From Neisseria sp. (GTDB lineage Bacteria; Pseudomonadota; Gammaproteobacteria; Burkholderiales; Neisseriaceae), in NCBI RefSeq assembly GCF_030527965.1, contig NZ_JAUMZU010000016.1, positions 1 through 64,000 of the forward strand: a stretch of 64,000 nucleotides of DNA. Direction: 5' to 3'. Shown piece after piece: positions 42,506 to 63,575 of the stretch. Every line of letters begins with the position of its first letter. Position 1 is the first letter of the stretch. The position numbers and the translations under genes were made by a program. Under the pieces are notes generated by a model. That model saw nothing but the letters and a program-made list of their open reading frames with translations, ran no database searches and was not told where the DNA came from.

Positions 42506-43300
<795 letters not shown>

Positions 43301-43306
43301 TTATTT

Positions 43307-43382
43307 GGGTCGTTAGCTCAGCTGGTAGAGCAGCGGACTTTTAATCCGTTGGTCGAGCGTTCGAATCGCTCACGACCCACCA
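43307..43382 (+). tRNA. tRNA-Lys (anticodon UUU), integration site
   Basis: The acceptor GGGTCGT (43307-43313) pairs with ACGACCC (43372-43378), then A and CCA. The anticodon arm is GCGGA-CTTTTAA-TCCGT. The T arm is GAGCG-TTCGAAT-CGCTC. The integrase gene runs into it from the right, so its 3' part is probably the attL core supplied by the element. A 20-base palindrome with T run at 43392-43411 is its terminator. Confidence 0.96.
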
Positions 43383-44460
43383 AGTTTTCTTTGCCTAAAC
43401 AATTGTTTAGGCCTTTTCTTTTTTGATTTTTCACTTCGTCTAAATTTGAGTGTGACCAATTTGTGACTAAATCAACATCAATTTCATCCAATAAAGCAGC
43501 ATGATTCTGCAAGTGATCAGGCGCCAAATGAGCGTATTTCTGTACCATTTCAACGCTCTCCCAACCGCCCATTTCTTTTAATGCCAGCAGTGGCACACCT
43601 CTTTGAACCAACCAACTCGCCCATGTATGACGCAGATCATGCCAACGAAAATCATGAATGCCAGCTTGTTCTAACGCCTTCTTCCAAATACGCGAGCTGA
43701 TGCTTTTTACCGGCCCACCTTTGGAATGTACAAAAACAAATTGTTTGTGCTTCCCCATCTGCTTTGAAAGTACATCAATCGCCGTTTGATTTAAAGCAAC
43801 GCCAATAGCATGTCCTGCTTTAGCTTCATCAGGATAAATCCATGCTACCTTTCTGTTTAAATCTACCTGCTCCCACTTCAAAGCAAGCACGTTCCGTTGA
43901 CGCAAACCCGTAGACAAGCTAAAAACAGCCATTACTGCCAAATATTCCGGCAAAACCTCAATCAGCTTTTCCGCTTCTTCCGGTCTGAGCCAGCGAATAC
44001 GCCGTTTAGGTTCACGGTATGCCGAAATCTTCGGTGCGGTATCTAACCACCTCCACTCATCACGGGCTTTGTTTAAAATAGCTCGAATCAAGGCAATATA
44101 ACGGTTTTTGGTACTATTGCCGCAACCCAGTCTATTAACGACCGACATAATAAAATCTCGGGTCATATGATGCAGATAAACACCGCGCAATTTACCTAAC
44201 TGCCGTAAACGGCTTATATCGTCATCAATGCTTTTTTTCTCGGCACTCATCTCCTCTATCCATCGGACGGCCGCTTCATCCCACAGCCGTTTCGGTTTCT
44301 CACCCATTTGCTCTTGTTGCCACAACTCATATTTTAGTTTGTCGTGCAACCTTTGGGCTTCCTGCTTGTCTTTCGTGCCAGCAGATTGTCTAATTCTGCG
44401 ACCGCTTTTGAGCCGGATATCAATCTGGAAATATCCATTTTTTCGTTTATAGATTGGCAT
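43318..44460 (-). CDS. Tyrosine site-specific integrase
   Basis: Catalyses integration and excision at tRNA-Lys. The 380-residue protein has an Arm/core N-terminal domain and the catalytic set: Arg in STGLRQRNVLALKWEQ, HDLRHTWASW, and Tyr in MVQKYAHLAPDHL (about 310-322). GGAGTG precedes the ATG at 44460. The last ~19 residues (GRERFERSTNGLKVRCSTS) are the antisense reading of the tRNA-Lys gene, with the stop codon inside it. The start overlaps the excisionase-like gene by 127 bases. Confidence 0.93.
   Translation of the reverse strand: MPIYKRKNGYFQIDIRLKSGRRIRQSAGTKDKQEAQRLHDKLKYELWQQEQMGEKPKRLWDEAAVRWIEEMSAEKKSIDDDISRLRQLGKLRGVYLHHMTRDFIMSVVNRLGCGNSTKNRYIALIRAILNKARDEWRWLDTAPKISAYREPKRRIRWLRPEEAEKLIEVLPEYLAVMAVFSLSTGLRQRNVLALKWEQVDLNRKVAWIYPDEAKAGHAIGVALNQTAIDVLSKQMGKHKQFVFVHSKGGPVKSISSRIWKKALEQAGIHDFRWHDLRHTWASWLVQRGVPLLALKEMGGWESVEMVQKYAHLAPDHLQNHAALLDEIDVDLVTNWSHSNLDEVKNQKRKGLNNCLGKENLVGRERFERSTNGLKVRCSTS
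43392..43411 (+). terminator. tRNA-Lys terminator inside int
   Basis: GCCTAAACAATTGTTTAGGC is a perfect 20-base palindrome, followed by CTTTTCTTTTTT on the plus strand. It lies within the 3' part of the integrase coding sequence, so the tRNA terminator may be element-derived. Confidence 0.75.
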
Positions 44461-44663
44461 TTTTGTTCACTCCTGTGTTCGAGTGATGCCTGCACGGCAT
44501 CATTTTCAAGATGGTTCAAAAATACGTCAAGGGCAGATTGGGTAATGCAGTATTTCCGTCCCGGTTTAGATGCAACCAATACCCCTTGCCGGATATATTG
44601 CCGGATGGTTTCCGGGTGGCATTGGCAATATTTAGCAGCGGCATTCACGTCATAGGTTTTCAT
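44334..44663 (-). CDS. Excisionase-like MerR/AlpA-type HTH protein
   Basis: The 109-residue protein begins with a short MerR/excisionase HTH: NAAAKYCQCHPETIRQYIRQGVLVASKPGRKYCITQSALDVFLNHLEND. A hydrophilic tail follows with an SGSKAVAELDNLLARKTSRKPKG end. The start at 44663 has AAGG 9 bases before. It overlaps the integrase start by 127 bases in another frame. Position beside int suggests a recombination directionality factor; not proven. Confidence 0.78.
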   Translation of the reverse strand: MKTYDVNAAAKYCQCHPETIRQYIRQGVLVASKPGRKYCITQSALDVFLNHLENDAVQASLEHRSEQKCQSINEKMDISRLISGSKAVAELDNLLARKTSRKPKGCTTN

Positions 44664-44673
44664 CAGGTTTTCC

Positions 44674-44928
44674 TTATGATACGTTTTCATAAACAGGGAA
44701 TGGTGCCGTTTCCATATCAAGCGCCAGTCGCTGAACTGCCTGATAGCGCTTAATTTTCGGTGACAATACCAGATAGGCCGTTTCGGATACATAAAAAAGC
44801 AGAAAATAATCATTGCCTGCTTCGGTATGTATCGGCTTTAACCGGTAATGCGGATACCGTTCATCGGGTGGCATAAAGGTCAGTCCAACCTTTATCGTAC
44901 TAAACGGATTACGCGCTTCAATCAACAT
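44674..44928 (-). CDS. Small hypothetical protein in the leftward operon
   Basis: The 84-residue soluble protein is not recognised. It is aromatic-rich (PHYRLKPIHTEAGNDYFLLFYVSETAYLVLSPKIKRYQ). AAGGAG precedes the ATG at 44928. It overlaps the next upstream gene by 11 bases and ends 10 bases before the excisionase-like start, so it belongs to the same transcript. Confidence 0.65.
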   Translation of the reverse strand: MLIEARNPFSTIKVGLTFMPPDERYPHYRLKPIHTEAGNDYFLLFYVSETAYLVLSPKIKRYQAVQRLALDMETAPFPVYENVS

Positions 44929-45166
44929 GACTTATCTCCTTCCCACCATAATAAAAACCAACCTGACAGGCTGCATGATAAAAAGCCGTGCTTTTATCAG
45001 GATTTTTTAATACAGTCATATAAGCACGATTGGCCCGCTCTACATCCCGCTTAAACATTTCCACTCTGCTCAACGGCCAATCGGCAAAGCCATCCGGTGC
45101 ACGGGCAATCATTGCTTCAAAACCACCACTCAATAAGTGATTCAGATACAGCATATCTATCTTCAT
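44918..45166 (-). CDS. Small hypothetical protein
   Basis: The 82-residue soluble protein is not recognised. Features: MYLNHLLSGGFEAMIARAPDGFADWPLSRVEMFKRDVERANRAYM-like helical content and one Cys. The start at 45166 (GAGAGGAAAC before) is preferred over 27 further codons upstream that have no ribosome site. It lies 20 bases after the TraM-like gene. Confidence 0.6.
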   Translation of the reverse strand: MKIDMLYLNHLLSGGFEAMIARAPDGFADWPLSRVEMFKRDVERANRAYMTVLKNPDKSTAFYHAACQVGFYYGGKEISHVD

Positions 45167-45185
45167 TTTTGTTTCCTCTCCATTT

Positions 45186-45638
45186 TCAGACAGGCTTTTG
45201 CAACCACCATAAAATAAAGATACCGGCAACCCAGATACCAGCTGCAATCAGTAAGGCCGTCATAATTAAACGATTCAGACGGTCAACCAACCGGCCGTTG
45301 ACCTGATTGACATCGGCTGCAATACGTTTATGTACGGCGGCATACAGTTTCGGTTCCGCATCTTCCATCTGTCGATTAGCCTGTTGTAACAAGTCGGCCA
45401 GCAGTTGTTCGCGGTAGGCTTCCAGCTTGGCAGCAGCCTGCGTGATATTGGCCTCATGTTCTGCCAGCTCTAGCATGAATTCTTTACGCTTTTCTTCCTG
45501 CTGTTTATCAAACGAAGCAAAAGCAGACTTTAACGCCTGCTCCTGCATCAACAGTACGGCAACAACAGGATCGTCTGCCGTCAGCCGCACACCGGTCAGC
45601 CGAAAGGTTTCGGCAATGATGTGATTAACCTTGCTCAT
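45186..45638 (-). CDS. TraM-like conjugation protein (IncP type)
   Basis: The 150-residue protein has a soluble N-terminus (IIAETFRLTGVRLTADDPVVAVLLMQEQAL), a long charged coiled-coil region (about 45-120) and one C-terminal membrane segment (LIMTALLIAAGIWVAGIFILWWL). Position directly behind a TraL-like ATPase (14-base overlap) and the membrane-anchored helical layout match IncP TraM. TraL/TraM of RP4 aid mating. The assignment rests on context and layout, not on a database search. The ATG at 45638 is one of two possible starts. Confidence 0.6.
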   Translation of the reverse strand: MSKVNHIIAETFRLTGVRLTADDPVVAVLLMQEQALKSAFASFDKQQEEKRKEFMLELAEHEANITQAAAKLEAYREQLLADLLQQANRQMEDAEPKLYAAVHKRIAADVNQVNGRLVDRLNRLIMTALLIAAGIWVAGIFILWWLQKPV

Positions 45639-46383
45639 CGGAGGCATCCGCATTAGCTAAAATCGGCAAATGTGCCAGCTGGGTAAACAGGTCGCGTTTC
45701 ACGGTACGCAGACGCTGGCGCGGCATTAAGCCAAACTCGGTTGATTCGTCTACTTCAGCAAAGGTCAGATTTCGGCTGGTCATCTCTTTAATGTCTTTGC
45801 CAAAGGTATCAGGATTACGCCCTACTATATGGACAATGCCAATAATCCGTTTTTTATACTCTTTATAAACCTGAAAATCTGTAAAGGGTTTACCATTACT
45901 ATCCTCAATCTGCCCTTGAAACTCATTCAGCCAGACAGCAATTTCCGCATCAACATCACGGGCGGTCTGAACCAGACCGATACCGCAATCTCTTAAAGAC
46001 TGGCCGCCCATTATCGGCACATGAACAATCAGACGAACCCCCGATTCACGCAACAAAGCAGGGACCTGATTCTCTGCCAGATAAGACATCAATGGCACAA
46101 AAGTGGCCGCGCCGTTATCCACTACACCAAAACCATCCAACTCGATCAATTTTTCAATCAAGCCGTCAAAGTTCCGTGTATCAATATTATTATCCTTAGT
46201 TAAAAGGCTAACAATTTCTGGTTTTAGCGCTGCAAACCGACTGAAAGTTTGATTAACTGGATCGGTATCAAAGCAATAAACCGGTTGATTGGAAACTTGT
46301 GCCAGATACTGAGCTAAAATAGCCGCCGATAATGATTTACCAACCCCGCCCTTACCCTGAGCAATCATATGAACTTCTTTCAT
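45625..46383 (-). CDS. TraL-like ParA-family ATPase (IncP type)
   Basis: The 252-residue P-loop protein begins MKEVHMIAQGKGGVGKS (deviant Walker A) and continues with FDTDPVNQTFSRF and RNFDGLIEKL ... VVDNGAATFVPLMSYLAENQVPALL, wording close to RP4 TraL rather than chromosome-partition ParA. The start at 46383 has GAAAGG before it. Likely role: an accessory of DNA transfer. It lacks a ParB partner nearby, which supports the transfer reading over partitioning. Confidence 0.72.
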   Translation of the reverse strand: MKEVHMIAQGKGGVGKSLSAAILAQYLAQVSNQPVYCFDTDPVNQTFSRFAALKPEIVSLLTKDNNIDTRNFDGLIEKLIELDGFGVVDNGAATFVPLMSYLAENQVPALLRESGVRLIVHVPIMGGQSLRDCGIGLVQTARDVDAEIAVWLNEFQGQIEDSNGKPFTDFQVYKEYKKRIIGIVHIVGRNPDTFGKDIKEMTSRNLTFAEVDESTEFGLMPRQRLRTVKRDLFTQLAHLPILANADASDEQG

Positions 46384-46460
46384 AAAAATACCTTTCTTTA
46401 AAAATGCTTTTCGCATAAAAAAGCCCACTGTCTTTCAGACAGGCTTTCTTATATAAAAAG

Positions 46461-46482
46461 CCCTGCGGAGTAACCCGCAGGG
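46461..46482 (-). terminator. Hairpin in the leftward operon after trbM-like gene
   Basis: CCCTGCGG (46461-46468) and CCGCAGGG (46475-46482) form a perfect 8-bp GC-rich stem. On the minus strand a CTTTTTATA run follows. It would end or attenuate leftward transcription, so antitermination (boxA at 48.24 kb) matters. Confidence 0.7.
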
Positions 46483-46527
46483 AAACTGTGCAACATAGTA
46501 AGGAATGAAACACAGAAGTGATCTAAG

Positions 46528-47058
46528 TTACTTCACATCCACCCAACGGCCGCCTTTTTTCTCTTCTCCGACATATTTCACTTTATCGGCTACCGTCGTC
46601 CAACCATGCTCAAAATAAGCACGGCAATAGTCCGGCCTCTCGTTGCGGATATAAGGAACTCGTCTCGTGGTATAAACACGATCTTTAATCCGACCGGTTT
46701 TATCCGACACCTGCTCTATATAAAAAGCACTGTTGGCTCGGTTGAGGTCAGCGGCATCACACCGGCCCGCACCATTAACCAACGCATTAACCAATGCAGG
46801 CATGTTTTCTTCCTCATTGGCAGGGCACAGTTTTAAGAAGTTACGACGGGCCTTTAAGGTCTTATGCAGCTTTTTATGCTTAATCTCAAAATATCGGCGG
46901 ATGGAAGGTTCACACTCAGATGGCCGGTCTCCACTGGATAAGCACAAAGTCGCCTCACAGGCTAGTTTGGCATCGCCGGTCAGCAGGTCTTCTGCCTGTA
47001 CGGTAGGGGAAAATAAAAGAGCCGCCATTAAGGCAGCCGGAATACAGTATCGTCGCAT
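46528..47058 (-). CDS. TrbM/KikA-family conjugal transfer protein
   Basis: The 176-residue periplasmic protein has a Sec signal (IPAALMAALLFSPTVQA) and the TrbM signature DAKLACEATLCLSSGDRPSECEPSIRRYFEI near 29-59, with four Cys spaced as in TrbM/MpfK. TrbM proteins accompany mating-pair formation but are not essential structural parts. AGGAG lies about 9 bases before the ATG. No other trb genes are visible. Confidence 0.85.
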   Translation of the reverse strand: MRRYCIPAALMAALLFSPTVQAEDLLTGDAKLACEATLCLSSGDRPSECEPSIRRYFEIKHKKLHKTLKARRNFLKLCPANEEENMPALVNALVNGAGRCDAADLNRANSAFYIEQVSDKTGRIKDRVYTTRRVPYIRNERPDYCRAYFEHGWTTVADKVKYVGEEKKGGRWVDVK

Positions 47059-47127
47059 ATTGCATTACTCCATAAAATTAAGGATAATCGCCATACCGCT
47101 ATGGAAGATTATTCTTTCAACAAAAGG

Positions 47128-47147
47128 CCGCTTTGGAAACAAAGCGG
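47128..47147. terminator. Hairpin between small gene and trbM
   Basis: CCGCTTTG (47128-47135) and CAAAGCGG (47140-47147) with a GAAA-type loop. A T run follows on the plus side, a weaker one on the minus side where the genes run. Confidence 0.55.
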
Positions 47148-47151
47148 TTTT

Positions 47152-47334
47152 TCATTGCCATTGGACGGCCTGCACCAAATAGCCGCCGTTTTCAGCTTGT
47201 ACGATATTGACGCATGCCGTCGGGTCATGATTCAGCATAAACAGGTCTACCTGTTTCGATGCTGCCGCCAAAGTCTCGAATACACCGATAACCGATACCG
47301 GCATAGGCTTGCGTGTTAATAAAATATTGAACAT
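47152..47334 (-). CDS. Very small hypothetical protein
   Basis: The 60-residue protein is not recognised (FNILLTRKPMPVSVIGVFETLAAASKQVDLFMLNHDP...). AAGGAGA lies before two tandem ATGs; the second, at 47334, has better spacing. It lies between two hairpins in the leftward operon. Confidence 0.5.
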   Translation of the reverse strand: MFNILLTRKPMPVSVIGVFETLAAASKQVDLFMLNHDPTACVNIVQAENGGYLVQAVQWQ

Positions 47335-47368
47335 CATGTTCTCCTTTCCGTTTTACAGAAATAAAAAT

Positions 47369-47385
47369 AGACCGTTAAACGGTCT
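47369..47385 (-). terminator. Hairpin after the lipoprotein gene
   Basis: AGACCGTTAAACGGTCT is a nearly perfect short palindrome. On the minus strand ATTTTTAT follows. It is one of three hairpins in the left operon. Confidence 0.55.
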
Positions 47386-47417
47386 GTTGAAAAAGTAGAT
47401 TTATCTTTCAATGGGAG

Positions 47418-47744
47418 CTATTCCCGTGTTTTAATCCAGATAATTAGCCGAACAAGGATGATTGAGACAACAAGATACATGAACGCTAAAATAGGATTCA
47501 GTATTTTGTCTCGTTCGACTTTTTCCTTATCAGCCCGTTGTTTTTCTTCCTCTGCCTGAATCTGTTCCCGCACCAGTTTTGCCTGTTGTTGGATATAAGG
47601 ATCAGTAGAATTTTTGGCCTGTTCTAAAATGGTAATACGTTCGCGGGCGATTTGTTGCCGTGCAAGTTGTTTCTCTTCCTCATTAGAGCAGGCGCAAACC
47701 GTGCCGGCCAGCGAAATAATCAGGATAAGATGGGAGACTTTCAT
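47418..47744 (-). CDS. Small lipoprotein, entry-exclusion-like
   Basis: The 108-residue protein has a lipobox-like VCAC (Cys at 19 lipidated), a charged coiled-coil (NEEEKQLARQQIARERITILEQAKN ... EEEKQRADKEKVERDKIL) and a C-terminal membrane segment (FMYLVVSIILVRLIIWI). Size and layout recall TrbK/EexN entry-exclusion lipoproteins of conjugative elements, although the extra C-terminal segment is unusual. It has a strong AAGGAGG site and is the first gene of the leftward operon. Confidence 0.55.
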   Translation of the reverse strand: MKVSHLILIISLAGTVCACSNEEEKQLARQQIARERITILEQAKNSTDPYIQQQAKLVREQIQAEEEKQRADKEKVERDKILNPILAFMYLVVSIILVRLIIWIKTRE

Positions 47745-48264
47745 CCTATATCCTCCTTTTTAATAAACAAAGTTACTTTTACAAATAGATAAGCTATAAT
47801 TAACACCTGCACAGAAGCCCGCTTCTTTCTAAAGCGGGCTTGAATTCAGATGCAACTAAAGACAGCGTGCGAGGCTGTCTGAAAATGTGTATTGATGACA
47901 CATATTGGGTTTAAATACCCTTATCTGCCCGTATAAGGCAGTCTCAAAAAAAATCAAACTGTATTTGGAGCGTGATCCGTAGATGATTGCTCCACATCAG
48001 GGATACGCCCTGATTGAAAGATACGTTCAACTGCCGCCTGTTACCGGACGCCACTGCGCTACCCGGATGCGCGGCATTTTCTTTAGGCAGATTGAATGCT
48101 GCCTGCAACCGTTTTCCGACTTACCTGAAGAATTAAGGCTTTCTACTTTAAAAAGGATTAATTCTTTTCGTACTTGTTGCCTATCTGAAAAAACTATAAA
48201 CCAACACTAAAGGCCGGTTGCTGCGTGTCTGATTGTTAAAGAACTCTGAAATCTCGTATTTGTT
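47745..48264 (-). other. Long leader of the leftward operon
   Basis: About 520 bases between the leftward promoter and its first gene. It holds a boxA-like site (48234-48244), an AAGCCCGCTT / AAGCGGGCTT hairpin (47815-47841) without a T run, and a short GGAGC / GCTCC stem near 47965-47995. A plus-strand 75-codon open frame at 47983 has no ribosome site and opposes the transcript. No supported gene. Confidence 0.5.
48234..48244 (-). promoter_or_regulatory. rrn-like boxA antitermination site
   Basis: On the minus strand the sequence reads GTTCTTTAACA followed by ATCAGACACG, close to the rRNA-leader boxA (TGCTCTTTAACA) and its downstream bases. It lies about 20 bases after the predicted leftward start site. 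NusB/NusE binding would let polymerase pass the hairpins in the operon. A matching boxB is not evident. Confidence 0.55.
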
Positions 48265-48316
48265 ATTTTAAGATAACTTAAATTTTAAGGCAAGATATTT
48301 TTTAAGAATTCTTAAA
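48265..48316 (-). promoter_or_regulatory. Leftward promoter with two repressor operators (OL-like)
   Basis: The minus-strand -35 is TTGCCT (48288-48293), spacer 17, -10 TAAAAT (48265-48270). Operator 1, TTTAAG-ATAA-CTTAAA (48267-48282), covers the -10 and spacer. Operator 2, the perfect palindrome TTTAAGAATTCTTAAA (48301-48316), lies just upstream of the -35. The half sites are those found between the repressor and cro genes. Confidence 0.75.
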
Positions 48317-48380
48317 TTTTTAGGTTGAGGCTATAAAAAACCACCATGATTTAAATGGTGGTTCAAAGACTTCAGAGAAC

Positions 48381-49028
48381 TTATCGTTTTCGTCGAAATA
48401 TTCGATGCTCAATCATTGTTCCAATAATTTCTACATTGTGTGATTGAGATGAGATACTTGCGTAATTTTCATTTAAAGGTAAGAGAGAAAAATTTTCAAT
48501 ACCTTCTTCTTTAAAATTTTCCTTGTATTTTCTAAAGAATACTTCATCAGAGTTTTTAGCTAGTACAAATTCTCCAGGGGAAGGTTTCAAAGTAGGATCG
48601 ATAACGATAATATCGCCTTCTATGAAATTTGGTTCCATAGAATCTCCTATCACCTTAAAAGCAAATGTATTACGGGAAATATTAGTATTTGTCATGATAT
48701 ATTCAACCTCTTTTTCTATAGATATTTTAAAGGGTTGCTTACCATTCCATTTTTTCAACTGTTCGTAGTCGATAATGGGTATCCTAGCATTATCAATCTC
48801 TACGACATCTACATTTGTCCCTTCTCCTTTTAATAACCAAGAGAAATCACAACCAAATAAAACAGATAATTCATATAAATTTTCTGCATTCGGTTTGGTT
48901 GTATTTGATTCCCATTGAGAAACCGCCACGTGGGAAACATCTTTTAATTTCCGAGCTAAATCTTTTTGAGTTAATTTAAGGGCTCTTCGCTTTTGGCGAA
49001 TCCTCTGACCTATTGTAGTTTGTTCCAT
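48381..49028 (-). CDS. CI-like repressor, XRE HTH plus S24 peptidase
   Basis: The 215-residue phage-type repressor has an N-terminal XRE HTH (QTTIGQRIRQKRRALKLTQKDLARKLKDVSHVAVSQWES) and a C-terminal S24/LexA autopeptidase domain with the catalytic Ser in VIGDSMEPNF and Lys in FFRKYKE. It would dimerise on the TTTAAG-N4-CTTAAA sites and be cleaved on SOS. No Ala-Gly or Cys-Gly cleavage pair is obvious in the linker. The ATG at 49028 is preferred over a TTG 5 codons upstream. AAGAGAGAT precedes it. Confidence 0.88.
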   Translation of the reverse strand: MEQTTIGQRIRQKRRALKLTQKDLARKLKDVSHVAVSQWESNTTKPNAENLYELSVLFGCDFSWLLKGEGTNVDVVEIDNARIPIIDYEQLKKWNGKQPFKISIEKEVEYIMTNTNISRNTFAFKVIGDSMEPNFIEGDIIVIDPTLKPSPGEFVLAKNSDEVFFRKYKENFKEEGIENFSLLPLNENYASISSQSHNVEIIGTMIEHRIFRRKR

Positions 49029-49041
49029 ATCTCTCTTGTCC

Positions 49042-49114
49042 AATATAAATTTAAGTTATCTTAACTGAACTTGATTTAAGTTTTCTTTATACTTATAATT
49101 TAAGAATTCTTAAT
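49042..49114. promoter_or_regulatory. Divergent promoters with three operators (OR-like)
   Basis: Three copies of TTTAAG-N4-CTTAAA-type sites: 49050-49065 (CTTAAC half), 49075-49090 (CTTTAT half) and 49099-49114 (CTTAAT half), spaced 25 and 24 bases centre to centre. The rightward promoter is TTGATT (49071-49076), spacer 17, TATAAT (49094-49099), with the second operator in the spacer and the third on the start. The leftward repressor promoter candidate is TTCAGT / TATATT with -10 at 49042-49047. Confidence 0.8.
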
Positions 49115-49127
49115 ATTGGTGAGAAAA

Positions 49128-49322
49128 ATGCGTAAAGTAGACGTTTTAAAATATTACGGTACGAGAACAGCTATTGCCAAAGCCTTACGGATTAGCCCTT
49201 CTGCAATTACACAATGGCCAGATATTATTCCTGAGAAACAAGCATATAAATTAGAAAGAATTACCAAAGGAGGGTTAACTGTAGATATAAACCTCTATAA
49301 AAAACAAGGTAAACAAAAATAA
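49128..49322 (+). CDS. Cro-like DNA-binding protein
   Basis: The 64-residue HTH protein (KVDVLKYYGTRTAIAKALRISPSAITQWPDIIPEKQAYKLERIT) has the Cro layout: short HTH where SPSAITQW is the recognition region, then a C-terminal beta strand LTVDINLYK. It starts at the ATG 49128 with GGTGAG before; a TTG upstream is not needed. It is transcribed from the rightward promoter, opposite the CI-like gene, and its stop overlaps nothing but abuts the next ATG. Confidence 0.85.
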   Translation: MRKVDVLKYYGTRTAIAKALRISPSAITQWPDIIPEKQAYKLERITKGGLTVDINLYKKQGKQK

Positions 49323-50093
49323 ATGCTCATCGCAGACATCCGCCACCACCTTGATAACCAATTCTTCCAAATCCATTGGGAGTTTTTGGCGTTGTGTGGA
49401 TCCAATTTACAGGCAGCGGGATTGTTGGGCGATCTATTCTGGTGGTCTCAGGTAGCCGACAAAGAACCCGAACGTCAAGGATGGCTGTATAAATCGGCAG
49501 TAGACCTGAACAATGAATTAAACCTAACACGCCGCGGCTATGAAAAAGCCCGCAAGTGCCTGTTAGAGCTCGGCGTCATTGAATATCGCCGCGCAGGTGC
49601 GCACGGCAAGATGCACTGGCGCCTCAACCGTAAGGTACTACTGCAAAAAATCTGTGACTTAAAGAATATAGCTTTCCCTTCAGAAATCCGTCATCAAATA
49701 GATGCAGACGGCTTTCATTTGGATAGCTGGGTGCCGCCAGACTTATGGAATGCCTATCTGAAAATGCGGCAGGAAAAAGACGGGAAACTGCTCGGCCCAG
49801 CTCAAAAGAAAAGACTACTCAAAAAACTCAAAGAACTACATCACCAGAAGCGGGATTTACGCCCGATTATGGAACGTGCCATTATCAGCGGCTGGAACAG
49901 TTTTTTCCCACTTGAAAATCATCCTCCTCAAACAGCTAATTTAATATCCGCAAAGGTGGAAGCAGAAGCCATGACGGCCCAGCTCAAACAGCAAATGGCC
50001 GACAGGGAAGAAAAACCGCCGGACAAAGACAGAAATCCTGATAATCCGGGCAGAAAGGCCATTTTAGATAAAGTCAAACACAAAAAACAGTAA
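49323..50093 (+). CDS. Replication-organiser-like protein (winged helix)
   Basis: The 256-residue protein begins directly after the cro stop (TAAATG), so it is translationally coupled. The N-terminus (FQIHWEFLALCGSNLQAAGLLGDLFWWSQ) and a winged-helix-like stretch (LTRRGYEKARKCLLELGVIEYRRAGAHGKMHWRLN) resemble phage/plasmid replication initiation helpers (phage O, DnaD/DnaT-like). The middle (AQKKRLLKKLKELHHQ) and C-terminus are helical and charged. The position after cro, as for phage replication genes, supports this. Function not proven. Confidence 0.55.
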   Translation: MLIADIRHHLDNQFFQIHWEFLALCGSNLQAAGLLGDLFWWSQVADKEPERQGWLYKSAVDLNNELNLTRRGYEKARKCLLELGVIEYRRAGAHGKMHWRLNRKVLLQKICDLKNIAFPSEIRHQIDADGFHLDSWVPPDLWNAYLKMRQEKDGKLLGPAQKKRLLKKLKELHHQKRDLRPIMERAIISGWNSFFPLENHPPQTANLISAKVEAEAMTAQLKQQMADREEKPPDKDRNPDNPGRKAILDKVKHKKQ

Positions 50094-50302
50094 ACAGCAG
50101 GCTGTTGGGGCAAGTGTATTCAAAATCCGCCCTAACAGCCTTTTTTGCGTCTTATTCCGCCTTTCAGGCGCCCCAAACGCATGGGAAAGGCGTTTTTTTC
50201 TATCAATGGCAACCAAAGCCTGTCTGAAAACCAGCCAACCTCACTTTTTCCACTAAAAAAAGCCCTTTTTTTGCTTTAAAAATAGCCTTTTAAAATCATA
50301 TC

Positions 50303-50534
50303 TTTGTACATTTAAGACAAAGTACAATGTCCGTTAAAGACAAAGCTCTTAGTACAAGCCGTACAACCTATATACAGAGAAAACAACAGAGACCACGTCA
50401 TAAAATATAACGGCCGACGGCCGTTGTGTGTTTTGATGATTTTTTAATCAAGATAGCGTTATGCTTAGGAAACCGACGTTTAGCGGATATTTAAAAGACT
50501 TATGCAGAGGGATATAGACAGGTTTTGTGGATAA
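50303..50534. promoter_or_regulatory. Candidate replication origin region with DnaA box and short repeats
   Basis: GTACAA occurs at 50322, 50352 and 50361 and its inverse TTGTAC at 50304. TTAAGACAAAG and TTAAAGACAAAG are nearby direct repeats. A perfect palindrome (AACGGCCG-A-CGGCCGTT, 50409-50425) follows. A perfect DnaA box on the minus strand (TTATCCACA) lies at 50526-50534. All are in the 477-base gap behind the replication-like gene. No open frame is supported in this gap. Confidence 0.4.
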
Positions 50535-50570
50535 ATGCGTTTGCATCGAAATAAATTAGACCCACATAGG

Positions 50571-50909
50571 TTATTTGGCGCCAGCTGAAAAAATTTCTTC
50601 ATCTGAAACCGTTTTCTGCCAGTTGAATTTACCCTTCTGCCTACCCGACGCGTTAACATTTTCCCCGGCTGGTTGATGTCCCTTATTTAAATCATGGTTT
50701 ATATGATTAGTATTCAGATATTGTTGAACAAACCGGTTTAAAGTTGGGCGGCTTACGGATAATCCTTTTTTCTCTTTCAGGTAGACAATAATCTGCTTCT
50801 CTGAATAGCCGTTATCTTTAAGAGTACGGATATCGGTTAAATATCTATCCAATTTTGAGCTTTTCCCCGCGGGTTTATTGGCTGCCATAAATTCTTCGAG
50901 ATCGTTCAT
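50571..50909 (-). CDS. Small helical DNA-binding protein, TraK-like
   Basis: The 112-residue basic protein has a compact HTH-like part: DRYLTDIRTLKDNGYSEKQIIVYLKEKKGLSVSRPTLNRFVQQYL (about 21-65), followed by a polar tail. The position beside the nic-like site, transcribed away from it, is that of IncP traK, whose product wraps oriT; the HTH is also compatible. Direct similarity to TraK is weak by eye. Alternative: another plasmid regulator. Confidence 0.5.
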   Translation of the reverse strand: MNDLEEFMAANKPAGKSSKLDRYLTDIRTLKDNGYSEKQIIVYLKEKKGLSVSRPTLNRFVQQYLNTNHINHDLNKGHQPAGENVNASGRQKGKFNWQKTVSDEEIFSAGAK

Positions 50910-51358
50910 TTCATCTATCTTTTAAATCATATTGAATCTTATTGTATCATATAATTTAAAAAATATAATCAAAATAAAATAGCATATGGAAGAATTTAAG
51001 TAATAAAAAATAAAATAAAAAATCATATTGATTCAACATTGAAAAATTATTTTCAATAAGTAATTAAAAGTAAAAAAATAGATATATAAAGAATCATTTT
51101 TTTGATGCAAAAAACATCATTTAGTGTTTCATTTTTACAAGAAAACGGTTTTTTCCTCGTTCGCGCGTACATCTCCCTCTGCTTATCACGAAAAATCTCC
51201 CATTTAACACCCAAATTAAACTAAACGCAGGATAGGCAACAGGTGCCAAAAACACCGCTAACGGTGTTATTCCGCTCAAAGCGGAAACGCCGCGAAGCGA
51301 CTGCCCCCTAGGGTTGTAAATAGTTTCTTAGTTAATTATCTAGCAGAAAGGAATCCTC
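50910..51358. other. AT-rich gap leading into the transfer origin
   Basis: Bases 50930-51130 are strongly AT-rich with A/T runs, as next to origins. The transfer-origin features lie at 51227-51286. No coding frame is supported. Confidence 0.5.
51227..51286. promoter_or_regulatory. IncP-type oriT candidate: nic core and two hairpins
   Basis: On the minus strand 51236-51227 reads CCTATCCTGC, the core of the RP4-family nic site (ACCTATCCTG/C), placing the nick between 51228 and 51227. To the right lie two perfect or near-perfect inverted repeats: AACACCG-CTAA-CGGTGTT (51251-51268) and TTCCGC-TCAAA-GCGGAA (51270-51286). The TraK-like gene lies 318 bases to the left. Confidence 0.65.
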
Positions 51359-51760
51359 ATGGGACTGGATATGTACGGCTATACCATGCGCGCCGAATTT
51401 GTCGGTGATAGACAAGTTGACGTTAAGCCTCGAACAGACAAAGAACGGGAACAGGCACAAATGGAAGTAATCGCCTATTGGTGGAAGTTCAACCATTTAC
51501 ACGGCTGGATGGAGAAGCTGTATCGGGAGAAAGGAGGAACGGCAGAGCATTTCAATTTATGCACGGTCAGGCTGGATATGGACGATTTAGCACGACTGGA
51601 GCAGGCATTGAATAACGACGAACTCGAATATACCGAAGGTTTCTTTTTTGGCGGAAAGGAAATCTATCCTGAAAACATTGAGGATACGCGGCAATTTATC
51701 GCCAATGCCCGAGATGCTATCGGTAAAGGGTTGACCGTTTTCTACAATTCTTGGTGGTAA
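51359..51760 (+). CDS. Conserved mobile-element protein, unknown function
   Basis: The 133-residue acidic soluble protein begins MGLDMYGYTMRAEF, a start seen in many phage and plasmid proteins of unknown function. Trp-rich (YWWKFNHLHGWMEKLY, YNSWW end). AAAGGAATCCTC precedes the ATG. It is the first gene right of oriT, thus in the leading or trailing region during transfer. Confidence 0.65.
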   Translation: MGLDMYGYTMRAEFVGDRQVDVKPRTDKEREQAQMEVIAYWWKFNHLHGWMEKLYREKGGTAEHFNLCTVRLDMDDLARLEQALNNDELEYTEGFFFGGKEIYPENIEDTRQFIANARDAIGKGLTVFYNSWW

Positions 51761-51814
51761 CCGTTACGGCCATGCGGTTTGCTTGGCCGCATGGCCGATT
51801 AAGGAGAAACAGAG

Positions 51815-52564
51815 ATGAGAGACGTCAATCAGAGAATGATTAAGCTGTTTGAGGCGTTAGATTCGGCTTTTCCTGTCGCGGAGGTATTCAGGGATTTTGT
51901 AGAGGTAAGCGCTATTGTGTTGATTAATCAATACGCTTTTGATGCTGAATGGGAGCAACGCGAGCAGCGTTATCATGAAATCCAACAGAAGTATGAAGAG
52001 GCCGATTTTTCCCGCCTGTCTGAATTGCTGAGCATATTGATGCTGGCTATCTATGAAGCGAAAGAAAGCGGCCTTTTTGTCGATATTTTAGGCAGCCTTT
52101 ATATGGGTTTAGGTTTGGGTAAATCCGCTAGCGGCCAGTTTTTTACCCCTTATGAAATAAGCAAACTGATGACCGCGCTGGTTGCGCCATATTTAGAGGA
52201 GGAACTAGCGAAAAAACCGTTTATCAGCGTCATGGAACCGTCCTGCGGCAGCGGTACAAATTTCATTGCTTTTGCCGAACGGGTCGCCGGGCACGGTTAC
52301 AGCCCGACCCGCAACATGGCAGCGGTCGGGGTGGATTTGGATATTTTGTGCGTTTGGATGTGTTTTATCCAATGTCAGCTTTACCGCATACCGGCCAAAA
52401 TCGTACACGGAAATAGCTTAACGCATGAATGCTGGTCGGCTTGGTGTACTTTGGATTGGTTCGCCGGTGGTTTTGGCGAAGCGATGAAACAGCGTTGCCA
52501 GCCAACCGAACAGGAGGATGGGAAAACAGCGCTCACTTTGGAAGAGCAATTGGTTTTATTTTGA
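51815..52564 (+). CDS. N6-adenine methylase-like protein lacking motif IV
   Basis: The 249-residue protein has an HsdM-type start: SASGQFFTPYEISKLMTALVAPYL (about 103-126) and the SAM motif I EPSCGSGTNFIAFAERV (about 143-159), then VGVDLDILCVWMCFIQCQLYRI. The catalytic NPPF/DPPY motif IV that should follow IVHGNSLT is replaced by HECWSAWCTLDWFAGGF. Plasmid proteins of this type are annotated as N-6 DNA methylases. It may bind SAM or DNA without methylating. AAGGAGA precedes the ATG. Confidence 0.7.
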   Translation: MRDVNQRMIKLFEALDSAFPVAEVFRDFVEVSAIVLINQYAFDAEWEQREQRYHEIQQKYEEADFSRLSELLSILMLAIYEAKESGLFVDILGSLYMGLGLGKSASGQFFTPYEISKLMTALVAPYLEEELAKKPFISVMEPSCGSGTNFIAFAERVAGHGYSPTRNMAAVGVDLDILCVWMCFIQCQLYRIPAKIVHGNSLTHECWSAWCTLDWFAGGFGEAMKQRCQPTEQEDGKTALTLEEQLVLF

Positions 52565-55591: not shown

Positions 55592-56032
55592 ATTGCAATA
55601 GCCTTAGAGATATTTCATCAAATTTAAATAGAAAGAGATAACTAGCTTACCAAGATACGGTTGAGTGGATTGGCTACATCTTAACAGCGAAAAATGGAGA
55701 AATTGTGTGAAAAATCGCATAGAATTCCAGGCAAAATAAATGTCTTTCACAAGATCATCTGTGAAAGGCATTCAATTTGAATTGCGGTTTTTAGTCAAAT
55801 TTCGGACTTTGTGCAACTGCTACATAATGCCGAAATAGATACTATTTCAAATACGATTTATTTATAAAATTGATATGCAATATATCTTTGAGAACGAAAA
55901 GTTACCGACTAGAAATATTCTCAGATAAGGCATTTAAACCTGCTTTGAGAAGGCAGGAGGTTTTTAAAGAGCCAATTTTTAGTAGAAAATAACTACAGTT
56001 ATGTTTTATTGAAAAACAAGAAAGGAAACGTC
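55592..56032. other. Gap behind the transposase remnant
   Basis: Contains a hairpin AATG-T-CTTTCACA / TGTGAAAG-G-CATT (55739-55772) and, before the TPR gene, CCTGC-TT / AA-G-GCAGG with T run (about 55939-55965). Possible decayed transposase DNA. No gene seen. Confidence 0.5.
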
Positions 56033-58270
56033 ATGAGCACTAGAAATCAATCAGAAATAGAAAAGTATGCTCAAAAACAATTTGATATTGGTTTGAAATA
56101 TTATAAGGCAAGCAATTTAAACGAGGCCATTAAAGCTTGGCTGAAGGTGCCGAAAAATGTACCGGAGACATATGCCAAGGCGCAATTCAATTTAGGGGTG
56201 ACTTACCAAAAACAAGGCAAGCTTGACGAGGTCATCAATGCTTGGCTGAATGTGAAAGAAACGGAAAAGGAACCGGAGCTATATGCTCAGGCGCAAATCA
56301 ATTTAGGGGTAGCTTATGATGAACAGGGTAAGTTAGACAAGGCCATCAATGCTTATCTAAATGTACCGAAAAATGTACCGGAGCTATATGCCCAGGCGCA
56401 ATTCAATTTAGGTCTGACTTATGAGGAACAAGGCAATTTAGAGGAGGCCATCAATGCTTGGCTGAACGTACCTAAAAATGTACCGGAACCATATGCCTTC
56501 GCTCAATACAATCTTGGTGTGATTTATAGTGAAAAAAATGAGCCAGAAAAGACTATCAAAGCATATCAAAGCGTACCGGAAGACGTACCTGGATTATATG
56601 CTATGGCAAAATTCAATCAAGGTTCATTTTACCAAACTCAAAGTAAATTAGACGAAGCTATCAAAGCATGGGAAAGTGTATCAAGCAGAGTAATTGATCA
56701 ATATTCTAAGGCTCAATTTAATTTAGGGTTGGCATACGAAGAAAAAGGCAAGTTAGACGAAGCCATCAATGCCTGGCTGAACGTGAAAGAAACGGAAAAG
56801 AAGTCGGAGCTATATGCTAAGGCGCAATTCAATTTAGCAGCAGTTTACGAGAAACAAAAAAGGTTAGATGACGCTATTGAAGCTTTGTTGAACGTAAAAA
56901 AAACAGAAAATGAATTTAATGACTTAGTGGAATTAAATTTAGGGAAACTGTATCTCAAGAACAATGAAGAAAGCAAGGCAGAAGAGGCTTTTAAGCGTAG
57001 CTCAGATAGTTTTTATCATCCATCTGAATGCGGAATTAAAATCATCAACTGCTCTCACTCTACAGTAGTTCGCACAAATTTAATTAAACTAATGGGTAAT
57101 ACAGAAGAAATATTGGAAAAGCTAAGCTTAATTCATACGTTTGAATCTCAAGTTGCACACTATACGCGTCGTCAAACTGCTTTTAAATTACTTGAATCGG
57201 GTAAAGATTCAAACGGATTAAATAAAGATAAAGCTTCCGCCTTTCGTTTGAGCACGATGCGGGGTGTTAATGATCCGGCGGAAGGAAAAGTATTAAGCCG
57301 TTACTTAGAACAACAGCACTTACCTAGCAACTTATATATGGGTTCGGAATTCGCCACTTTTGTCAGCTGCTTTACTTTTAATCACGATAGCCTAAATCAA
57401 TTTAGGCTGTATGGTAAAGAAAATAACCAGGAAGCTTCTGGCATCAGTTTAATTTTCAATGTTCAAGATTTTTTTGAAGATAAGTTGGCTGGGATTGCAT
57501 CGTTTATTAATCCGAATAAGGTTGATTCATTGACCAAAGAAGCATCAAATGGTTCAAAAGAAAAGCCATCAGATAACCTACCGAAAAGCGGGATAGAAGA
57601 GCAATCGAAAAAGGTTGGAGACAAAGGAACTGACGAGAAGCCTAAAGTGGATAAACTCGCTATATACCGTTGTATTTATTTGGATCCTGATAGTGGATAT
57701 TTTGCTTTAGCAGCCCGGGATGAACTTACTTTTTATCGTGAATGTGTTGGCTCTGAAGAACAAACTACAGAAGAAATTAAAGGGAATGCAAGTAAAAAGT
57801 GGGAAGAATACCAAGAAGAAATTAAACAAAAAACTACTAAGATTCAAAAGCTGCTTTATCTGGGTGAGGAAGGTAATTATAACACTAGTAGTGTGCTGTA
57901 TTTTTTAAGAGAAATCTTTAAGGTTTTTAATAGTGAAGAGGTTGTAAAAAAAGATAGGCCACACATTATAGAAACCATTCGTTTTATTTTACTGCCATTG
58001 CAATATCTGATTAAGCATGCTGCTTTTCAAGAGGAACAGGAATGCCGGATGCTCTATATTACCCAATGGAACGATAAGAAAATTCATAGTTACCGTGAGA
58101 GTAATGAAATGTATGTTGAATATAACGAGCCTGTGAGAAGGAATTTGAAAAAAATCTATCTTTCTCCCGGAGCGGTAGAACATGAGGACTTCTTTAGAGT
58201 GCTATTAAAAGGAACGGAAACAGCAAATAAAATCTGCATTTCTAGCAATCCCTTCCGACATAAAGGATGA
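56033..58270 (+). CDS. TPR protein with C-terminal DUF2971-like domain
   Basis: The 745-residue protein starts MSTRNQ with AAAGGA before the ATG at 56033. Residues about 5-310 carry eight to nine TPR units with the core AQFNLG-x-Y-x4-GKLDEAINAWLNV. Units come in a 35-residue form (ending PKNVPE-) and a 37-residue form (ending KETEK-EL), and their DNA is also near identical. A C-terminal DUF2971-like domain (about 370-735) has YTRRQTAFKLLES, FRLSTMRGVNDPAEG, FVSCFTFNHDSLNQFRLYG and FQEEQECRMLYITQW. Function unknown; repeats suggest peptide binding and copy-number change by recombination. Confidence 0.75.
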   Translation: MSTRNQSEIEKYAQKQFDIGLKYYKASNLNEAIKAWLKVPKNVPETYAKAQFNLGVTYQKQGKLDEVINAWLNVKETEKEPELYAQAQINLGVAYDEQGKLDKAINAYLNVPKNVPELYAQAQFNLGLTYEEQGNLEEAINAWLNVPKNVPEPYAFAQYNLGVIYSEKNEPEKTIKAYQSVPEDVPGLYAMAKFNQGSFYQTQSKLDEAIKAWESVSSRVIDQYSKAQFNLGLAYEEKGKLDEAINAWLNVKETEKKSELYAKAQFNLAAVYEKQKRLDDAIEALLNVKKTENEFNDLVELNLGKLYLKNNEESKAEEAFKRSSDSFYHPSECGIKIINCSHSTVVRTNLIKLMGNTEEILEKLSLIHTFESQVAHYTRRQTAFKLLESGKDSNGLNKDKASAFRLSTMRGVNDPAEGKVLSRYLEQQHLPSNLYMGSEFATFVSCFTFNHDSLNQFRLYGKENNQEASGISLIFNVQDFFEDKLAGIASFINPNKVDSLTKEASNGSKEKPSDNLPKSGIEEQSKKVGDKGTDEKPKVDKLAIYRCIYLDPDSGYFALAARDELTFYRECVGSEEQTTEEIKGNASKKWEEYQEEIKQKTTKIQKLLYLGEEGNYNTSSVLYFLREIFKVFNSEEVVKKDRPHIIETIRFILLPLQYLIKHAAFQEEQECRMLYITQWNDKKIHSYRESNEMYVEYNEPVRRNLKKIYLSPGAVEHEDFFRVLLKGTETANKICISSNPFRHKG

Positions 58271-62528: not shown

Positions 62529-63575
62529 TTACCGTTGCACATCTTTTTCCGATTGATTTTGTTGCTGCAACTGCTCAACTGCACGCGGATTGCCGGCCAA
62601 TCGGTCGAACTTATCCTGTGCCTGTGTGTTGAACGACTGCCCGGCTACTTCCCTCGCCAGTTTGCTGATGATGCGCGCTTCAGTTTTATGGCCCATCTTG
62701 TACAACTCCTTCGCTATCTGCCCGTATTCTTCAATAATAATGCCCCGCGTTTGCAGGGCTTCTTTCAGATACGGATGTTTGGGTCGATCATTGTGTTTTA
62801 AGGCTTCTATCAGTTCTTCCGCCTGTTGCCGGGCAACATGGCTTAATGCACCGCGTTGCCTCATCGCCCGTAAAACACTGTTTTCCGGTTTCTGTGCTTT
62901 GCCTCGATGTTGTCGTTTGGTGGCAGCGCACAAAACACCTTCTTCGCGTAATTTCTCGGCAAAGCGTACCCGCCATTCAAACAGGTCGGCTTTGCGCGGG
63001 TTCAGTCGTTGGCCAAGCTCGTCCCGCATCAATACGCACAAGTGCACATGAGGATGCGGCGGTTCGCCCGGGCGGTCAGATTCGTGGTGCAGACCGAAGA
63101 CATACTGGTGGCTGTCGAACTGTTCGGCGGCAAACTTACGGGCGGCTTTGTGTACCGCTTCCGGCGGTGTACCGGCCGGCATCGACAAGACGATGTTCAA
63201 GGCTTCTTTGTATTTGCTTTCTTCCGGGATACCCAGCTGCTGCCAGTCTTTCAATAAGCCGTTAATCGCTTTCTTACCCGACAGTTTCTCACCGTCCTGT
63301 GTTTCCAGTTTCACTTCGCCGTTACGTGACACATAATCCAGATGATTGCGCACCCCGCGCATACCATTGGAACGATTGCTGAGCCGTTTAGGAATTTTGA
63401 CCATCACTTCGGGATGTTTCAGTGCGGCCGAACGCAGGTTGGACAGCCCGCTGCCCGGCTTCAGCGGTTTGCCTTTACGCCGGCCACCGCCTATGGCCAT
63501 ACCTTTGTCTTTCGCTTTGACCGCACGGGTTCGGTAACCTAAAAACCATTCGTCGATGTTACGGTTTAAGGACAT
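62529..63575 (-). CDS. MOBP-type relaxase
   Basis: Nicks oriT and pilots the transferred strand. The 348-residue protein has a motif I Tyr81 in NHLDYVSRNGE (compare VKYITDEQG in RP4 TraI) and motif III histidines: HHESDRPG (163-164) and PHPHVHLCVLM with H174, H176 and H178. The C-terminus is charged and lacks a primase domain; RP4 TraI is far longer. AAGGAG precedes the ATG. It is encoded 16 bases after the accessory gene. The IncP-type nic site at 51.2 kb fits this family. Confidence 0.88.
   Translation of the reverse strand: MSLNRNIDEWFLGYRTRAVKAKDKGMAIGGGRRKGKPLKPGSGLSNLRSAALKHPEVMVKIPKRLSNRSNGMRGVRNHLDYVSRNGEVKLETQDGEKLSGKKAINGLLKDWQQLGIPEESKYKEALNIVLSMPAGTPPEAVHKAARKFAAEQFDSHQYVFGLHHESDRPGEPPHPHVHLCVLMRDELGQRLNPRKADLFEWRVRFAEKLREEGVLCAATKRQHRGKAQKPENSVLRAMRQRGALSHVARQQAEELIEALKHNDRPKHPYLKEALQTRGIIIEEYGQIAKELYKMGHKTEARIISKLAREVAGQSFNTQAQDKFDRLAGNPRAVEQLQQQNQSEKDVQR

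Follow-up and report, generated by a model that had tools for sequence, protein, structure and literature searches.

A P22-type immunity region with two operator sets, a repressor without self-cleavage residues and a conserved leader RNA on a putative integrative conjugative element of Neisseriaceae

Introduction

Switches of the CI/Cro type have been described on integrative conjugative elements (ICEs). In SXT/R391, SetR and a Cro-like repressor form such a switch, and, as far as the published account of SetR goes, the four operators of the repressor all lie in a single intergenic region, another site at a distance of 800 bp was proposed and never assessed, and SetR is cleaved in the SOS response (PMC4542580). 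ICEriNK and ICENmu were described with an integrase, a VirB-type T4SS, a MOBP relaxase, and divergent Cro/C1-domain genes near attR, and ICENmu is stated not to use a tRNA gene (Hughes-Games et al. 2020, PMC7371117). This ICE family and its Cro/C1-type pair are therefore already in print; in the searchable part of that account, the terms operator, promoter, boxA, non-coding, and SOS do not occur. The open-licence literature yielded no further paper naming ICEriNK or ICENmu, and its searchable portions yielded no account of double operators, lost cleavage residues, or a leader RNA.

With respect to the left transcript, the nut sites of lambda and P22 are cis-acting RNA sequences that lie early in this transcript, ahead of terminators. 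The put RNA of HK022 is described in the same terms (PMC9378689). A repressor/Cro pair with operators on both sides is also described for the Qin prophage of E. coli, namely DicA/DicC, and DicA is reported to have no RecA cleavage site (PMC10448788).

Here, we analyzed 64,000 nucleotides of Neisseria sp. DNA (the window; positions 1 to 64,000 of contig NZ_JAUMZU010000016.1, assembly GCF_030527965.1), for which a preliminary description had proposed a lambda-like double operator system on a mobilizable element. The element is like SXT/R391 in that a CI/Cro-type switch resides on a putative ICE; unlike SXT in its published description, it has two separate operator sets and a repressor without cleavage residues. 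It is probably also the same kind of element as ICEriNK and ICENmu, a likeness drawn from their published description and not from sequence identity. What is new here is an rrn-like boxA together with a covarying predicted leader RNA ahead of a putative trbM-traL terminator.

Results

Table 1. Features of the element and its control region in the window (positions refer to the 64,000-nucleotide stretch).
Feature	Position	Strand	Evidence and remarks
tRNA-Lys(TTT), presumed attachment site	43307-43382	+	
Tyrosine integrase (Int)	43318-44460	-	PF00589, E 2.8e-34; ORF end overlaps tRNA-Lys gene
Small conserved protein overlapping int	44334-44663	-	xis-like by place and by eye only
TraM-like	45186-45635	-	NF010470, E 4.1e-4, far below its cut-off; adjoins TraL
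TraL	45625-46380	-	NF010461, E 7.5e-68, 228.5 bits vs curated cut-off of 360
Intrinsic-terminator-like hairpin, trbM-traL junction	46461-46482	-	
TrbM	46528-47058	-	PF07424, E 2.7e-45
61-aa protein in PL operon	47152-47337	-	conserved in many relatives; candidate regulator or antirepressor
Small protein, lipoprotein-like start (by eye)	47418-47744	-	first ORF >60 aa behind PL; no convincing family in family searches
Structured untranslated leader of PL transcript	47810-48266	-	fold -143.6 kcal/mol, z -5.78, 0/100 shuffles
Covarying core of leader RNA (model R1)	47964-48114	-	
boxA-like TTCTTTAACAA, core TCTTTAACAA	48233-48243	-	near start of PL transcript
Predicted promoter PL	48265-48293	-	TTGCCT-17-TAAAAT, 9/12
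Inner OL operator	48267-48282		0 mismatches; overlaps predicted PL between -35 and -10
Outer OL operator	48301-48316		perfect palindrome, 0 mismatches; pair partner 34 bp off in 11/12 clade loci
P22 C2-like repressor	48381-49028	-	HTH_3 and Peptidase_S24; Arg at catalytic Lys position, other residues at cleavage dipeptide
OR3, repressor-proximal operator	49050-49065		1 mismatch
Predicted promoter PR	49071-49099	+	TTGATT-17-TATAAT, 10/12
OR2	49075-49090		2 mismatches; within spacer of predicted PR
OR1	49099-49114		1 mismatch; at -10 and start of predicted PR
P22-type Cro	49128-49322	+	PF14549, E 2.8e-19
Phage O-like replication initiator	49323-50093	+	PHROG 9773, E 5.8e-15; PHROG 678, E 1.6e-12
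Small conserved protein	50571-50909	-	TraK-like by place only; no family match
MobA/VirD2-type relaxase	62529-63575	-	PF03432, E 7e-9; region without C2 operators

To judge from its sequence, the element (Table 1) is most likely an integrated conjugative (or mobilizable) element of Neisseriaceae of the ICE type. Its integrase gene adjoins the tRNA gene; the only other copy of the attachment site in this genome is a whole second tRNA-Lys gene, and the contig ends at 75037. Toward this end lie the relaxase, a primase-like and an ArdC-like gene, the latter two named from reading the sequences with no family match behind the names, and a coupling-protein ORF of 243 aa that covers only the C-terminal part of its family (L002 13349-14080, minus strand). 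The VirB genes of the same genome are on a different contig (C26, L206), at its end. In the relative G010, the same element (L207) is contiguous with genes of the VirB8, VirB9, VirB10, and VirB11 types as well as with a complete coupling-protein gene, which indicates an ICE in that genome. Segments repeated in tandem (by eye) and a long C-terminal part characterize a large protein encoded at 56009-58270 on the plus strand, which appears to be cargo of the element.

The repressor and cro genes are divergent, and the O-like gene directly follows cro. The best solved relative of the repressor is P22 C2 (1adr, E 7.6e-13) and that of Cro is P22 Cro (1rzs, E 3.9e-15); lambda CI matches the repressor via its S24 part alone (1kca, residues 113-206). 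A lambda-type identity was rejected because the solved P22 relatives fit better. Of the phage OL/OR plan in the preliminary description, the two operator sets and the CI- and Cro-like genes stood, and the type had to be changed from lambda to P22. By homology and layout, not by inducibility, the control region is a P22-type immunity region.

TTTAAG is the P22 operator half-site in solved structures; our comparison rests on the P22 record (L022). Like the element, the P22 c2-cro region of this record has homologous repressor and Cro proteins, TTTAAG half-sites, and a distance of about 0.8 kb between the OR and OL sets. At ≤3 mismatches, two of its three OR sites pass, as do two OL sites at a distance of 35 (34 in the element), and a boxA-like CTCTTTAAC lies behind OL, just as the element has its boxA. 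Unlike P22, the element has a repressor without cleavage dipeptide and Lys, a predicted PL that points to transfer genes where the phage has its early genes, and a long conserved leader RNA, the model of which has no match in the P22 record. DicA/DicC, which was matched in the family search, is the same kind of repressor/Cro pair with operators on both sides; DicA differs from the element repressor in having 135 aa and no S24 half and in controlling the dicBF operon. The C2-like repressor gene of Pantoea phage PA-1 (L023 4001-4648) is interrupted by a single internal stop, and its annotation gives two ORFs.

A site scan found the five TTTAAG-N4-CTTAAA palindromes of the preliminary description, with 0-2 mismatches in the 12 half-site bases. 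Three are located between the divergent CI-like and Cro-like genes with spacings of 25 and 24, matching the 24-25 bases claimed, and two lie behind the repressor gene at the opposite promoter, both of them perfect and with starts 34 apart. A lone half-site (48284-48289) is found between the two OL palindromes, and the OL and OR sets are separated by 733 bases (0.75-0.83 kb from centre to centre). Two perfect sites in the left intergenic region and three sites at ≤2 mismatches in the right one occurred in 0/5000 dinucleotide shuffles in either case, and in a motif-free test the best half-site was TTTAAG, 6 times vs a maximum of 4 in 300 shuffles. These shuffle tests ruled out chance clustering of AT-rich half-sites. 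The sixth TTTAAG belongs to a site at 48236 with 2 mismatches, which was left out of the operator count and overlaps boxA. The entire window holds 5 sites at ≤1 mismatch, 4 of them in the immunity region, and 9 at ≤2 mismatches, 6 of them in that region. An isolated operator-like palindrome outside the element (31407-31422, 1 half-site mismatch) is probably due to chance.

A promoter scan gave 5 promoters vs 7.7 in shuffles, i.e., no excess, and PL was therefore assigned mainly by its placement among the operators. Operators were also considered for the region of relaxase, primase, and coupling protein, and none was found at ≤2 mismatches in its 15,037 bases. Control of DNA-transfer and integration genes by the switch, as previously proposed, thus agrees with the position of trbM, traL, traM, and int behind the predicted PL and does not extend to the operator-free relaxase region. 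TraL, TraM, and TrbM are accessory to DNA transfer and not its core.

Among 83 Neisseriaceae genomes, 11 contained the repressor at E ≤1e-15, at 13 places. We set aside L020 (29% identity, a distant type) and refer to 12 loci, including the window, as the clade. With ≤3 of 12 mismatches allowed per site, the OR triplet at 24-25 bp spacing is present in all 12 loci and the OL pair at 34 bp in 11; it is missing in one locus (L013/L031). The preliminary description had named the absence of the sites from related elements with the same repressor as a refuting condition; the relative loci do contain them (OR triplet 11/11, OL pair 10/11). As to DNA looping between the two sets, which the preliminary description considered possible, the distance from the repressor stop to the outer OL site ranges from 64 to 922 bases among the 11 clade loci that have OL, so that the spacing varies. 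All 11 relative loci contain Int, the xis-like gene, Cro, and the O-like gene; TraM is found in nine, and TrbM and TraL in eight. OL and the tra genes have been lost from L031, TraL and TrbM are absent from L029/L030, and L026 has boxA without a leader-RNA match or TraM. The genome of the latter (G054; L026 2797-3423, 9974-10615) has another, distant S24 repressor some 7 kb away from the first; a weak O-like match adjoins it, which would suit a tandem of two immunity modules. No repressor at E ≤1e-30 was found in 368 other genomes of a class sample. As a search of genome contigs revealed a relative with 50% identity in Actinobacillus minor (L006), the repressor type is not confined to Neisseriaceae, and the class sample misses relatives.

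We aligned the repressors with P22 C2, in whose numbering the cleavage dipeptide is Ala94-Gly95 and the catalytic residues are Ser132 and Lys174; the Lys position is taken to be catalytic as in LexA and lambda CI. In all 11 distinct element repressors, Ala-Gly is absent, the catalytic Lys is exchanged to Arg, and the catalytic Ser is kept. The window repressor has LK in place of Ala-Gly, and eight different pairs occur across the clade. All three features are kept in 68 of 69 distinct comparison repressors, a set biased toward cleavable forms because the best 80 of 587 viral loci, which contributed to it, were ranked against a prophage repressor. The set further includes 6 of the 80 loci from a viral scan with the P22 query, which gave near-copies, as well as L045, A. 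minor L006, and P22; other phage, plasmid, and L020 rows were left out. The A. minor repressor keeps Ala-Gly and Lys. The sole exception among the 69 is L045 (5881-6537), a metagenomic viral contig whose repressor has no Ala-Gly, Arg for Lys, and a different N-terminal part, with phage-like neighbors (by eye). Outside the 69, the Ehr59, PA-1, and Klebsiella plasmid repressors keep Ala-Gly and Lys, and both are absent in L020, the distant Neisseriaceae repressor. In a tree of 79 rows without L045, the element repressors cluster together (support 100/98), consistent with the cleavage residues having been lost once.

A boxA is found within 120 nt behind OL in all 11 clade loci with OL. Its core TCTTTAACAA equals the rrn boxA before 23S rRNA in 5/5 stretches from five related genomes (6 fetched); the comparison refers to these genomes and not to the window's own, in which TTCTTTAACAA has 6 matches, none seen next to rRNA, and in whose assembly the 16S start motif was not found. 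Immediately after boxA, the leader's conserved GCAACCGGCC stretch takes the form of a terminator-like hairpin (48199-48219, minus strand), which could be nut-like or an attenuator.

In the core of the leader, 10 of 32 pairs are compensated in nine sequences. The covariance model made from these nine detected 23 copies in 19 of the 83 Neisseriaceae genomes, the nine included. A 22-sequence alignment, which was fitted to the model and leans toward the structure (the nine-row alignment was not fitted), has 98.3% of its cells paired and changes on both sides in 19/32 pairs; 0/500 shuffles reached any of five measures, and slid controls gave 3-6 double-changed pairs. With one nearly invariant G-U set apart, G-U cells exceed A-C cells by 17 to 2, which assigns the fold to the PL strand and does not tell RNA from single-stranded DNA. 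TCTTTAA, i.e., boxA, lies within 260 nt upstream of 22 of the 23 copies (the miss is L242) and of none on the other strand (0/23). Within the clade, 10 of 12 loci have the leader RNA; L026 and L031 do not. Across positions 43000-52000, Rfam gave 5 matches at E ≤1, none within the leader, and the model had no match in 273 other genomes of a class sample (under stricter filters) or in the phage loci L006, L043, L044, L022, L023, and L024. An N-like protein encoded in the leader was considered and rejected, as by eye the first 700 nt contained no convincing ORF (≥30 aa) common to relatives.

Further downstream on the PL operon strand, a strong hairpin with a T run lies between trbM and traL (46482-46461). 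At this junction, a hairpin followed by CTTTTTAT or CTTTTTAC is found in 10 of 18 elements, other terminator-like hairpins in two, and none in six; the count covers 18 of the 21 loci with both genes (L239, L242, and L246 left out). The 5-kb stretch contains 18 terminator-like sites on both strands together vs 5.1 in shuffles. With boxA and a conserved RNA at its start and a terminator within, the operon suggests antitermination of the PL transcript, as with nut or put. Complexes at rrn-type boxA mainly oppose Rho, and reading through an intrinsic terminator would therefore need more than boxA. Like HK022 put and lambda/P22 nut, the leader is a putative cis RNA early in the left transcript before terminators; unlike these, its fold is much longer (a core of about 150 nt), no N-like protein was recognized, and antitermination is a prediction.

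Thirteen of the 23 leader-RNA copies are in loci without the repressor clade of the window. Twelve of these share the gene order of TrbM, TraL, TraM, the xis-like gene, and Int, with only part of TrbM matched in two cases, and the O-like gene is found in 11. C2 has weak matches (24-39%) in four, and the window-type Cro has none. The repressor slot is instead occupied by other repressor/Cro-like genes of at least four types, as sorted by eye (L235, L236, L240, and L245; L241, L242, L243, and L246; L237, L238, and L244; L239). Several of these other repressors look altered at S24 catalytic positions (by eye). The thirteenth locus, L234, does not have this gene set in the 20 kb fetched, which contain a transposase-like ORF (by eye). 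The immunity modules thus seem to be exchangeable among elements; swapping of the repressor beside shared tra and int genes is the mosaic pattern of lambdoid immunity regions.

Discussion

We read the locus as an ICE-type element whose P22-type switch works without self-cleavage and whose transfer and integration genes are subject to antitermination, and assign this reading a probability of about 75%. In the quiet state, the C2-like repressor would occupy OR and OL and shut off PR and PL. The PR unit would comprise cro and the O-like replication gene, and the PL unit the leader RNA, trbM, traL, traM, the xis-like gene, and int. Upon failure of repression, Cro would block the repressor gene, and PR would provide the replication initiator. 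We infer that polymerase starting at PL would take up Nus factors at boxA, probably with help from the folded leader, and would then read through the trbM-traL terminator into the transfer and integration genes.

Release, unlike in P22 or SXT, would not proceed by RecA-driven self-cleavage. In the preliminary description, the S24 domain was to mediate SOS release and so couple mobilization to DNA damage, which would correspond to the situation in SXT. The S24 domain and the catalytic Ser are indeed kept in all 11 element repressors, and gonococcal RecA promotes LexA cleavage in vitro and was reported to cleave the LexA-like NG1427, according to the account consulted (PMC3040777). However, the replacement of Ala-Gly and the Lys to Arg exchange in the same 11 repressors argue against self-cleavage, and a Gly change in the SXT cleavage site is described as making that element unresponsive to mitomycin C (PMC4542580). 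Release by self-cleavage is thus not supported, and we regard it as highly improbable; RecA could still act by indirect routes. More likely, release would result from chance loss of repression, from an antirepressor, or from zygotic induction in a repressor-free recipient. The region could also be a decayed prophage immunity region that stands beside transfer genes and no longer controls them, a picture that the loss of OL and tra genes in L031 and the incomplete coupling-protein ORF of the window contig would fit. We consider this very unlikely, as 8 of the 11 relative loci have TrbM and TraL behind the repressor in an unchanged order, although the proteins are only about 40-70% identical, and the OL pair and the OR triplet are kept in each of the eight.

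The conserved fold could act as single-stranded DNA rather than RNA, namely as a leading-strand promoter or initiation site used on entry into the recipient. Single-stranded DNA structures of such a kind exist on plasmid leading regions, and the fold is strongly structured and sits on a transfer element. In 22 of 23 copies, the fold comes after boxA and is oriented as in the transcript, which speaks for RNA, and no oriT was located. We consider the DNA alternative unlikely. Returning to an RNA that acts in antitermination, we tentatively consider, at odds somewhat below even, that the leader represents a new class of cis-acting antitermination RNA, consisting of boxA and a large fold and perhaps working with no N protein of the element. 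It would render polymerase terminator-resistant and thereby gate transfer and integration genes across an element family with exchangeable immunity modules, in the clade of the window under a repressor that abandoned SOS.

In terms of biology, the lambdoid early-gene plan, with two operator sets, Cro, an initiator, an early-left leader, and a terminal int, would have been carried almost whole into conjugative elements, among which immunity modules are seemingly swapped as they are in phages. The element would also provide a case of CI-type control in which SOS cleavage was lost in one clade, and a new conserved RNA would stand at the entry of transfer gene expression.
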